A stretch of DNA of 34,125 nt from Actinomycetota bacterium (GTDB taxonomy: Bacteria > Actinomycetota > Thermoleophilia > Gaiellales > Gaiellaceae): assembly GCA_005888365.1 (NCBI GenBank), contig VAWZ01000103.1:9303-43427 (forward strand), written 5' to 3'. This document shows positions 6,727 through 11,895 of the stretch, piece by piece. Below the pieces are notes generated by a model. That model was given only the letters and a program-made list of their open reading frames with translations, was not told the DNA's origin and ran no database searches. Position 1 is the first letter of the stretch, and each line of letters opens with the position of its first letter. A program made the position numbers and the translations under genes.

Positions 6727-9123
6727 CTAACGAGCGCGCGCGCCCACGATGCCCGGGCGCACGAGGCGCGGCGGCGCGACGAGGCCCGCGTCTTTGATCG
6801 GCGGATTCAACGGCTCCGCCAGCAGCGGCGCGCCAAACGACGCGCGCACCCGCTCCTCGGGCGGCTCGCCGTAGAGCGTCGTCCGCTGCCGCGGAACGCG
6901 CCCCGCCGAGCGGATCAGCTCCTCCATGCGCTCGGGCGGCATCTCCTGCCCGAAGAGCGCTCCGGCCGAACGCGAGATCGACTCGTTCATGAGCGTTCCG
7001 CCGAGGTCGTTGACTCCCGCTCGGAGAGCCTCGCGGGTGCCAGCGGGGCCGAGCTTCACCCACGACGCCTGGACGTTCGTGATCCACGGATGCAGCGCGA
7101 GCCGGCCGACCGCATGCACGAGCAGCGCCTCCCGGAACGTAGGCCCTCGGCGCGCGAGGCCCTTGACGTACATCGGCGCCTCCATCGGCACGAACGGAAG
7201 CGGGACGAACTCGGTGAAGCCCCCCGTCCTGCGCTGTTGCTCGCTGGCCCGAATCAGGTGCCGCGCCCAGCTGCGAGGCGAGTCTGCATGCCCGAACATC
7301 AGCGTCACGTTGGAGCGGAGCCCGGCGCGATGCGCCGTGTCGTGGACCTGGAGCCACTGCTCGGTCGTCACCTTGTCCGGGCAGATGACTCGCCGCACCT
7401 CGTCGTCGAGCACCTCGGCGGCGGTGCCCGGAAGCGAGCCGAGCCCGAGGTCGTGCAGGCGAGCGAGGTACTCCTCGAGCGAGAGACCGAGCGTCGCCGC
7501 CCCCTGCCAGATCTCGAGCGCGGAGAACGCGTGCACGTGGATTCCCGGCACGGCTTCCTTGATCGCGCGAACGACGTCCGCGTAGTAGTCGCCCGTGAAG
7601 GCCGGGTGAATCCCGCCCTGGAGGCAGACCTCGGTCGCCCCCCGCTCCCAAGCCTCCTGCGAGCGGCGGACGATCTCTTCGAGCGGGACGAGGTACGGCG
7701 CGCCGCGCAGGTTCTCGGCGAGCTTTCCCTTGGAGAAGGCGCAGAAGCCGCAGCGGAAGTAGCACACGTTCGTGTACTGGATGTTTCGGGTGACGACGTA
7801 GGTGACCTCGTCGCCGCACACCTCGCGCCGAAGCCGGTCGGCGGCCACGAAGACGCGGTGTGCTTCCCCGCCGCGGGCCCCGAGCAGGCGCGTCAGCTCG
7901 TCCTCGCCGAGCTCGTCCCCCGCGAGGCCGAGCGGAAGCGCGTCGCGCTGCACGAGGAACGGGATCGCCCCGAGCTCGCCAGGCGCCCAGGCATCGTCTC
8001 GCGCATGGCCGGTCGCGTCGGCCGCACGCCGGACGAAAGGCGCCACTGTGGGATCGCACCAGCGTTCGAGCCCGGCGACGTACTCGGGGTAGATCGGTAG
8101 CCTCGGCGCGAGCTCGAGCCCGCGGCTATGCGTCGCTTCGGCCAGACGCGCCATCTCGGGCCAGGGCGCCTCGGGGTTGACATGGTCGACCGTGACCGGG
8201 GAGACACCGCCCCAGTCGTCGATCCCTGCGTCGAGAAGCCTTGGAAAATCGTCGTAGGCCAGATTCGGCGGCGCCTGGATGTGCCATTCGGCGCCGAGGA
8301 CGATCCGAGCGACCGCGACCGTCCAGAGGTGCTCCTCGAGGGACGGCTCGGAATGCGCCGCCATCCGCGTCCCCGGCTTCGCGCGGAAGTTCTGGACGAT
8401 CACCTCCTGGATGTGCCCGTACTCCTCGCCCAGCGCTCTCAGGGCGAGCAGTGCGTCGACCCGCTCCTCCCGTGTCTCGCCGATCCCGATCAGGATCCCG
8501 CTCGTGAAGGCGATCCGGAGCTCGCCGGCAAGCCCGATCGTCTCGAGGCGACGGGCGGGGGTCTTGTCGGGCGACGCCCAGTGCGGGCCGCCCCTCCCCC
8601 CCAGCCGCTCGGCCGTCGTCTCGAGCATGATCCCCATCGAGGCGCTGACCGGCCGCAGGAGCTCGAGCTCCGCCCGGTTCATCACCCCCGGGTTCAGGTG
8701 AGGGAGAAGCCCAGTTTCCTGGAGGACGAGGTCCGCGCACCGGGCGAGGTACTCGATGGTCGTCTCGCAGCCGAGCCGGGCGAGCTCCTCGCGGGCCACC
8801 TTGTAGCGGAGCTCCGGCCTGTCTCCGAGCGTGAAGAGCGCCTCGCGGCATCGTGCCTCGGCGCCCGCACGAGCGATCTCGAGCACCTCGTGCTCGGTCA
8901 GGAACGCCCGCTCGCCCCGCCGCGGCGGCCGCGCGAACGTGCAGTAGCCGCAGACGTCGCGGCAGAGCTTCGTCAGCGGAATGAAGACCTTCGGCGAGTA
9001 CGTGACGAGCGGCCCGGGTCGTAGCCGCCGGGCCTCCGCGAGGACCTCGTCGAGCGGCGCAGCAAGGAGATCGCCCCAGTCGAGAGCTGAGTCGAGGGCT
9101 GAGTCGAGGGCTGAACCGACCAC
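6727..9123 (-). CDS. fbiC: FO synthase, fused CofG/CofH radical SAM protein (F420 biosynthesis)
   Basis: Two CxxxCxxC clusters (CRDVCGYC and CYFRCGFC), 798 aa two-module layout. Confidence 0.92.
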   Translation of the reverse strand: MVGSALDSALDSALDWGDLLAAPLDEVLAEARRLRPGPLVTYSPKVFIPLTKLCRDVCGYCTFARPPRRGERAFLTEHEVLEIARAGAEARCREALFTLGDRPELRYKVAREELARLGCETTIEYLARCADLVLQETGLLPHLNPGVMNRAELELLRPVSASMGIMLETTAERLGGRGGPHWASPDKTPARRLETIGLAGELRIAFTSGILIGIGETREERVDALLALRALGEEYGHIQEVIVQNFRAKPGTRMAAHSEPSLEEHLWTVAVARIVLGAEWHIQAPPNLAYDDFPRLLDAGIDDWGGVSPVTVDHVNPEAPWPEMARLAEATHSRGLELAPRLPIYPEYVAGLERWCDPTVAPFVRRAADATGHARDDAWAPGELGAIPFLVQRDALPLGLAGDELGEDELTRLLGARGGEAHRVFVAADRLRREVCGDEVTYVVTRNIQYTNVCYFRCGFCAFSKGKLAENLRGAPYLVPLEEIVRRSQEAWERGATEVCLQGGIHPAFTGDYYADVVRAIKEAVPGIHVHAFSALEIWQGAATLGLSLEEYLARLHDLGLGSLPGTAAEVLDDEVRRVICPDKVTTEQWLQVHDTAHRAGLRSNVTLMFGHADSPRSWARHLIRASEQQRRTGGFTEFVPLPFVPMEAPMYVKGLARRGPTFREALLVHAVGRLALHPWITNVQASWVKLGPAGTREALRAGVNDLGGTLMNESISRSAGALFGQEMPPERMEELIRSAGRVPRQRTTLYGEPPEERVRASFGAPLLAEPLNPPIKDAGLVAPPRLVRPGIVGARAR
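9078..9113. repeat. Three 12-bp tandem repeats in the fbiC N-terminal coding sequence
   Basis: agtcgagagctg / agtcgagggctg / agtcgagggctg, encoding (SALD)3. Confidence 0.85.
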
Positions 9124-9698: not shown

Positions 9699-10853
9699 AT
9701 GTCCGTTCGACGCCTCGAGCACATCCCCGGGTTCAGCATCGACCGTGTAGCCGCCGCGGCAGGCGACGACCCAGACGTCCTCCGTCTGGAGAACCTCGAC
9801 ACCGACATCCCTCCGCCGGCAGAGGCGATAGAGGCGACGCGGGCGGCGATCGGCGAGGACGAAGCGAACAGCTGGTTGCCCTTCACTGGCCGCGACGATC
9901 TCAAGGAGTCGGTAGCCGCATACATCGAGCGCCGCGGCGGGCCTCGCTATGGACGCGGAGAGATCGTGATCACGTGCGGCGAAGGCGATGCGATGCTGAA
10001 CGCCCTCTTTTGCCTGACGGATCCTGGAGACGAGGTTGTGCTCACCGATCCGACGTACGCCGGGATGCTCAACCGTGTCCGGCTTGTCGGCGCAAGCCCG
10101 CGGCTCGTATCGCTCCGCGTCGTCGACGGAGAGTGGCGGCTCGATCTCGAAGCATTGTCGGCCGCGGCCGGCGAGCGCACGCGCGTCGTCTTCGTCAACA
10201 ACGCGTCGTTCCCGACCGGGTGGGTTGCGAGCGACGAGGAGTGGGATGCCATCGCCTCGATGTGCCGCGAGCACGATCTCTGGCTTCTCTACTGGGCCGG
10301 ATACGAGTGCGTCCTCTTCGACGGCCGGCCGATCCGGCAGCCAGCGGCGCTTCCTGGCATGCGGGATCGAACGGTCACCATCGGCGCGCCTACACTCGAG
10401 CAACGCATGATCGGCTGGCGGGTCGGCTGGGTCGTCGCACCGGGCGAGCTCGCAAACGACGTCTCACGTGTCCACATCTACAACGGACTCGTGGCGAGCG
10501 GATTCGCGCAGATTGGAGCTCGAGTCGCACTCCACCTGCCCGACGACCACTTGGATGCGGCCAACGGGGAGTACCAGCGGCGCCGCGACGAGACGCTCCG
10601 CGCGCTCGACGGCCTGCCTGCAGTGCGCCCGGCCGGAGGCTGGTCGCTCCTGCTCGACATCGCCGCCCTCGGGCTGGACTGCGTCGAGGTCTCCAACCGC
10701 CTCCTCGAGGAGAAGGTCGCTGCCACGCCGATGCGGGGCTGGGGCGGAGAGATCGCGGACCGACACGTGCGCTTCGTCTTCAGCAACGAGCCGGTCGAGC
10801 GGCTGGCGCTCCTTGGTCCACGCGTCCGGGCTGCGCTGACCGCAGCTTCGTAA
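9699..10853 (+). CDS. Class I/II aminotransferase-fold protein with catalytic residues replaced
   Basis: Fold motifs GEGDAMLNAL, DPTYAG, FPTGWV, GWRVGW, HVRFVFSNEP; the Schiff-base Lys position is Leu. Confidence 0.8.
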   Translation: MSVRRLEHIPGFSIDRVAAAAGDDPDVLRLENLDTDIPPPAEAIEATRAAIGEDEANSWLPFTGRDDLKESVAAYIERRGGPRYGRGEIVITCGEGDAMLNALFCLTDPGDEVVLTDPTYAGMLNRVRLVGASPRLVSLRVVDGEWRLDLEALSAAAGERTRVVFVNNASFPTGWVASDEEWDAIASMCREHDLWLLYWAGYECVLFDGRPIRQPAALPGMRDRTVTIGAPTLEQRMIGWRVGWVVAPGELANDVSRVHIYNGLVASGFAQIGARVALHLPDDHLDAANGEYQRRRDETLRALDGLPAVRPAGGWSLLLDIAALGLDCVEVSNRLLEEKVAATPMRGWGGEIADRHVRFVFSNEPVERLALLGPRVRAALTAAS

Positions 10854-10887: not shown

Positions 10888-11895
10888 GTGGAGTGGGGGG
10901 TCCCCACATTGGCCGACGTCCTCGTGGCGCGCCGTCGCATCGCACCTCACCTTCGACCGACTCCGCTCTATCGCTACGCAGGTCTCGACGAGCTGCTCGG
11001 AGCCGACGTCTTCCTGAAGCACGAGAACCACCAGCCGGTCGGCGCCTTCAAGGTCCGGGGCGGCGTCAATCTCGTCTCCCAGCTCACGGACAGCGAGCGG
11101 AAGCGCGGAGTCATCGCAGCCTCGACCGGAAACCACGGGCAGTCGGTCGCCTTCGCCGCTCGGCTCTTCGGCGTCCGGGCGACGATCTGCGTCCCCGAAT
11201 GCGCGAACCGGGTCAAGGTCGAGGCCATGCGCGGGCTCGGCGCGAAGCTCGTCTTCCACGGCCGGGACTTCGACGACGCCCGCGAGCACTGCGAGCGCCT
11301 CGCCGAGCAGCACGGGTATCGGTACGTGCACTCGGGCAACGAGCCACTCCTGATCGCCGGGGTCGGAACAGAGACGCTCGAGATCCTGGAGGAGGAACCG
11401 CAGATTGATGCAGTCGTCGTGCCGGTTGGTGGTGGAAGCGGCGCTGCCGGCGCGTGCATCGTCGCCAACGCGATCAATCCGGAGGCCCAGGTCATCGGCG
11501 TCCAGTCGTCGGCTGCGCCGACCGCGTATCGCTCCTGGAAGGAGCGTCGACTCGTCGAGGAGCCCATGGAGACGTTCGCCGAAGGGCTGGCCACGCGGAC
11601 GGCGTTCGAGCTCCCACAGAGGATTCTCTGGCAGTGGCTCGACGACTTCGTCCTCGTGACCGATGACGAGATTCGCAAGGCGCAGAGGACGTTGATAACC
11701 GAAACTCGGAACCTGGTGGAAGCCGCGGGCGCAGCGCCACTCGCCGCGGCCTTTCAGCTCCGTGAGCGGATCGCCGGAAAGCGGATCGCGCTCGTCGTGA
11801 GCGGAGGAAACGTCACGCGAGAACAGCTTCTCGACGTGTTGAGCCCCGACCCTGCTGTGCCCGCCGAATCTCGCGAGCTGACGGCGAAGCTCTGA
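10888..11895 (+). CDS. Threonine/serine dehydratase-like, PLP fold-type II
   Basis: KHENHQPVGAFKVRGG with intact Lys, STGNHGQSVAFAARLFG, VPVGGGSGAAG. Confidence 0.85.
   Translation: MEWGVPTLADVLVARRRIAPHLRPTPLYRYAGLDELLGADVFLKHENHQPVGAFKVRGGVNLVSQLTDSERKRGVIAASTGNHGQSVAFAARLFGVRATICVPECANRVKVEAMRGLGAKLVFHGRDFDDAREHCERLAEQHGYRYVHSGNEPLLIAGVGTETLEILEEEPQIDAVVVPVGGGSGAAGACIVANAINPEAQVIGVQSSAAPTAYRSWKERRLVEEPMETFAEGLATRTAFELPQRILWQWLDDFVLVTDDEIRKAQRTLITETRNLVEAAGAAPLAAAFQLRERIAGKRIALVVSGGNVTREQLLDVLSPDPAVPAESRELTAKL

Follow-up and report, generated by a model that had tools for sequence, protein, structure and literature searches.

Few PLP enzymes have been studied as thoroughly as the class I aminotransferases, and the roles of the active site residues of aspartate aminotransferase (AspAT) are well established: Lys258 forms the Schiff base, Asp222 contacts the PLP ring nitrogen, Asn194 is the Asn of the NPTG motif, Arg266 binds the PLP phosphate and Arg386 binds the substrate alpha-carboxylate. 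Other branches of the fold already offer examples of a lost Lys. SPT LCB1 is a fold type I subunit which lacks the Lys and pairs with LCB2 (PMC3794620), and in ColD-type 3-dehydratases the catalytic Lys is replaced by His while the cofactor is kept (PMC8987622). The nearest named models to the protein described here include capreomycidine synthase VioD and the gamma-hydroxy-L-arginine cyclodehydratase GntC (NF041364), an enzyme with a PLP-binding Lys219 (PMC10367076).

The window, the whole 34,125-nucleotide stretch of actinomycetotal DNA that we analysed, carries a gene whose product had been described in a sequence-only reading as an aminotransferase-fold protein without the catalytic Lys, the PLP Asp and the NPTG Asn. 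We assigned its active site positions by alignment with solved aspartate aminotransferases, using E. coli AspAT numbering, and compared them with two groups of relatives, a Lys-less clade and a Lys-containing sister clade:

9699..10853, + strand: Lys-less class I aminotransferase-fold protein, 384 aa (PF00155 E=7.4e-31; pLDDT 95.8; TM up to 0.93)
9981..9989, + strand: Glu95-Gly96-Asp97 of the phosphate-binding cup (AspAT Ser107-Gly108-Thr109 region), which mark out the Lys-less clade in the clade comparison
10209..10211, + strand: Phe171 (ttc) at AspAT Asn194, by alignment; Met in the Lys-containing sister clade
10293..10295, + strand: Trp199 (tgg) at AspAT Asp222, by alignment; Trp or Leu in the Lys-less clade
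10395..10397, + strand: Leu233 (ctc) at AspAT Lys258, by alignment with AspAT and relatives; Leu, Phe, Trp or Ile in the Lys-less clade and Lys throughout the sister clade
10419..10421, + strand: Arg241 at AspAT Arg266, retained and invariant
10770..10772, + strand: Arg358 at AspAT Arg386, retained and invariant

The open reading frame is uninterrupted, as had been claimed, and a purine-rich stretch, gaaaggggg, lies directly 5' of its ATG. The three replacements fall at codons 233, 199 and 171 just as the sequence-only reading had placed them. A BLASTP alignment with a Lys-containing relative is gap-free over residues 88-337 of the window protein, which leaves no doubt about the Lys column. 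The protein has two Lys residues in total: Lys69, in an N-terminal helix, is Arg in every Lys-containing relative compared, and Lys339 is unconserved, which leaves no visible candidate for a displaced Schiff-base Lys. Nor does the alignment contain any column with Lys in all members. We therefore rejected a shift of the Schiff-base Lys to another position, and the alternative active site Lys that the earlier reading had named as its possible refutation was not found.

The fold type I architecture and the PF00155 match (108 bits against a cut-off of 19.7 in the Pfam profile search) place the protein in the class I/II aminotransferase superfamily. AlphaFold2 models were built on the family alignment, without ligand, for the Lys-less protein (pTM 0.93) and for one Lys-containing sister (pLDDT 96.0, pTM 0.94). 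Both align full length with PDB aminotransferases, the Lys-less model for example with 1gd9 (TM 0.93, 1.9 Å RMSD), and the predicted fold is kept despite the loss of the cofactor residues. Judged from its residues, the window protein is a member of the superfamily by sequence and fold but not a PLP-dependent aminotransferase as an enzyme class, because both defining residues tested, the Schiff-base Lys and the ring Asp, are absent, although the carboxylate Arg is present.

We sought homologs in a genome-collection scan, whole-genome searches and a plasmid search. Fifteen further distinct Lys-less homologs, 55-83% identical to the window protein, were placed in a tree; a sixteenth, L036, was left out since its active site stretch is missing. 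They come from Actinomycetota MAGs, the isolate Lentzea terrae (81% identical to the window protein), another Lentzea-family genome, a complete Arthrobacter plasmid, a Nitriliruptorales MAG, and MAGs labelled Chloroflexi, Dormiibacterota and Zixiibacteriota. In all 16 Lys-less sequences the Lys position holds Leu, Phe, Trp or Ile and the Asp position Trp or Leu. The IQ-TREE phylogeny separates them from the other sequences by a single branch with support of 99/97, which traces the loss of Lys and Asp to a single origin. A phage or viral origin was rejected: viral contigs held no relative, and phage matches were distant (at most 28.7% among the matches listed).

The sister clade (e.g. L091, Paraburkholderia BEI73130.1) is 43-53% identical. 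Like the Lys-less proteins, it has the ENLDTD N-terminus, a hydrophobic residue for the NPTG Asn, Arg241 and Arg358; unlike them, all its members keep Lys258, nearly all keep Asp222, and the cup has Gly instead of Glu95. The Asn194 position is Met and the Tyr225 position mostly Met. Since Met already replaces Asn in this Lys-retaining clade, the NPTG Asn was lost before Lys and Asp. The triple substitution proposed earlier thus stands in part: the losses of Lys and Asp are common to the 15 further homologs, but the loss of Asn is older, so that at least two events are involved. The sister subfamily has an unusual PLP site of its own, with Met at both PLP O3' contacts (Asn194 and Tyr225) while Lys, Ser, Arg and nearly always Asp are kept, and its members (L091, L079, L095 and others) match no NCBIfam model above cut-off. 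Against the GntC model both clades score 170-239 bits, the window protein 178.6, far under the cut-off of 415; membership in a named NCBIfam family, GntC included, was rejected, as every score lay under its cut-off.

Apart from Lentzea, the additional Actinomycetes that we sampled carried the Lys-containing form alone, which makes the Lys-less form the less common of the two. The two forms were never found together in one genome at E<=1e-60, though the numbers are too small for significance within the family of the window. This distribution bears on the idea that the Lys-less protein is a structural or regulatory subunit paired with an active aminotransferase, as LCB1 is with LCB2 in SPT. Aminotransferase dimers have their active site at the interface, and the fold type I precedent is close in one respect, LCB1 being a conserved homolog without the PLP Lys (PMC3794620). 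LCB1 nevertheless belongs to a different family and forms an obligate heterodimer with a Lys-containing paralog, whereas we found no such sister paralog at E<=1e-60 in any genome with a Lys-less copy and no aminotransferase as a conserved neighbour. A generic aminotransferase encoded elsewhere in the genome could still pair with it, and we consider a partner-subunit role quite unlikely.

The lineage is under strong purifying selection in several phyla and is not decaying. Pairwise dN/dS is 0.08-0.16 for the closest Lys-less pairs and 0.08-0.25 in the Lys-containing sister, and mean branch lengths from the shared ancestor are 0.81 and 1.05 changes per site, respectively. The earlier proposal of a function under selection is therefore borne out by a single clade with low dN/dS, evolution no faster than in the sister, and new clade-specific conserved residues. 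Two damaged copies are the observations that would suit a lineage decaying into pseudogenes or an artefact of sequencing. L036 (1480-2184), from a MAG, has three in-frame internal deletions and, like the window gene, precedes a PALP gene; it is either a pseudogene or an assembly error. L010 (6001-7200), also from a MAG, has a deletion and a frameshift near codon 312. The damage in both may mean that the gene is dispensable in some genomes, or may reflect assembly errors. However, 15 of the 16 tree members are undamaged (L019 is merely cut by a contig end), including those of the isolate genome and the complete plasmid, and identical replacements recur across independent assemblies. The decay that could have overturned the sequence-only reading is not seen in the lineage as a whole, and we regard this explanation as very improbable.

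The cofactor pocket appears rebuilt rather than merely broken. Comparison of 15 Lys-less with 27 Lys-containing sequences shows a remodelled phosphate cup: Glu95 is found in 13 of 15 Lys-less sequences (Gln or Asp in the others) and Gly96 and Asp97 in all 15, while the sister clade mostly has Gly-Leu/Met-Glu/Asn at 95-97, in the loop around the PLP phosphate. Hydrophobic replacements occur in the clade at 171, 199, 202 and 233. Three of the four sequences with Leu199 in place of Trp199 have Trp201, which looks like packing compensation. The clade also retains Tyr120 (at the Trp140 position), Asn57 and Ser58, together with most of the ENLDTD motif (31-36).

These replacements would preclude covalent binding of PLP and probably any PLP binding whatever, because large hydrophobic side chains (Trp199 or Trp201, Phe171, Leu or Phe233, Phe202) would occupy the site of the pyridine ring, a filling of the ring site that we infer from the alignment, and Glu95 and Asp97 can occupy Arg241. 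An internal aldimine and classical transamination are likely absent, and PLP is probably absent altogether. One point against a PLP-free reading is that Arg241 and the Tyr at the Trp140 position remain, so that PLP or PMP may bind non-covalently. The cofactor could then be exchangeable or a cosubstrate, with another residue as acid/base, as in the ColD/E1 nucleotide-sugar 3-dehydratases, which share the aminotransferase fold and a replaced catalytic Lys. Retention of Arg241, Tyr120 and Arg358 favours this, as do a PNPOx-like gene adjoining one Lys-less gene (L099) and the precedent of a cofactor kept without Lys in the His-bearing 3-dehydratases (PMC8987622). ColD/E1 enzymes, however, use PMP and a catalytic His, and no such His is present at the Lys position anywhere in the clade, where Leu, Phe, Trp or Ile stands instead; the ring-nitrogen Asp is lost too, its replacement by Trp or Leu is expected to clash with the pyridine, and the phosphate cup has gained an acidic residue. 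Non-covalent use of the cofactor is accordingly unlikely in our estimate and, like the partner-subunit idea, is less favoured than the explanation we prefer.

That explanation, to which we give somewhat better than an even chance, is a conserved pseudo-aminotransferase, PLP-independent and probably binding a carboxylate metabolite. In this one lineage of the class I aminotransferase fold, the Schiff-base Lys and the ring Asp are gone and Glu has replaced the Gly of the phosphate cup. More tentatively, the protein may still form an aminotransferase-like homodimer and hold a carboxylate, such as an amino acid or a keto acid, via Arg358; its role, in amino-acid metabolism, may be to bind a ligand, to regulate, or to catalyse acid-base chemistry in the absence of PLP. 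Sensing or binding of a carboxylate metabolite through Arg358 and PLP-free catalysis are both possible; at most, the window protein would act as an aminotransferase without the chemistry, with the dimeric fold and the carboxylate Arg but no cofactor machinery. A bolder version, in which PLP has been shed altogether and a new PLP-independent catalytic or metabolite-sensing site has arisen in the old pocket (Glu95/Asp97 with Arg241, and Arg358) in several phyla, we hold to be doubtful. New catalysis in the narrower sense, by Glu95/Asp97 together with the invariant polar residues Tyr120, Tyr261 and His356, would fit the presence, at and near the old cofactor site, of polar residues that are specific to the clade or invariant in it, but the same residues could serve binding only. 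We know of no precedent for PLP-independent catalysis in class I, and we consider this possibility, too, quite unlikely.

The genomic neighbourhood of the window gene does not extend to a conserved partner. A link to its downstream neighbour had been implied in the sequence-only reading:

10888..11895, + strand: PALP (threonine dehydratase-like, fold type II) gene, 34 bp downstream of the Lys-less gene

The two genes are adjacent only in the window and in one relative of the same taxonomic family (G255), and other Lys-less loci have different genes. The PALP gene is therefore not a conserved neighbour and is probably not part of the system, and we rejected the partnership. Where the Lys-less gene seems operonic (the window, L084 and L099), its neighbours are amino-acid genes: in L084 a gamma-glutamyltranspeptidase gene lies 12 bp upstream, and in L099 (6989-10640, - strand) DDAH/arginine-deiminase-like, class III aminotransferase and PNPOx-like genes lie upstream on the same strand in an apparent operon. 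The remaining loci have unrelated neighbours, and because neighbours vary between loci the link to amino-acid metabolism is weak. Elsewhere in the window, 6727-9123 (- strand) encodes a protein of 798 aa in which two stretches are of radical-SAM type and the C-terminal region is of CofH/MqnC type; it resembles a CofG/CofH fusion of F420 biosynthesis.

The sister clade has a more regular context, with an XRE-cupin regulator directly beside the aminotransferase in 16 loci, usually divergent with ~50 bp between the genes. Example loci of the regulator are:

L088, 1460-2026, - strand: XRE-cupin regulator
L095, 6399-6950, - strand: XRE-cupin regulator
L081, 7354-7899, - strand: XRE-cupin regulator

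L088, from genome G238, is a Lys-less locus sharing this divergent arrangement. In that genome at least, the Lys-less gene seems to sit in a locus equivalent to that of the sister-clade gene.

The open-access literature that we searched described no Lys-less clade of class I aminotransferases. Most likely, the job of this lineage no longer uses the vitamin B6 cofactor. Automatic annotation through PF00155 as 'pyridoxal phosphate-dependent aminotransferase' would assign these genes a function that they very likely lack. The order in which the cofactor contacts were lost can be read from the two clades: Asn went first, and Lys and Asp followed along with the remodelling of the phosphate cup. The Lys-less clade and its ~50% identical Lys-containing sister form a clean pair for probing the capabilities of the fold once the cofactor is gone.
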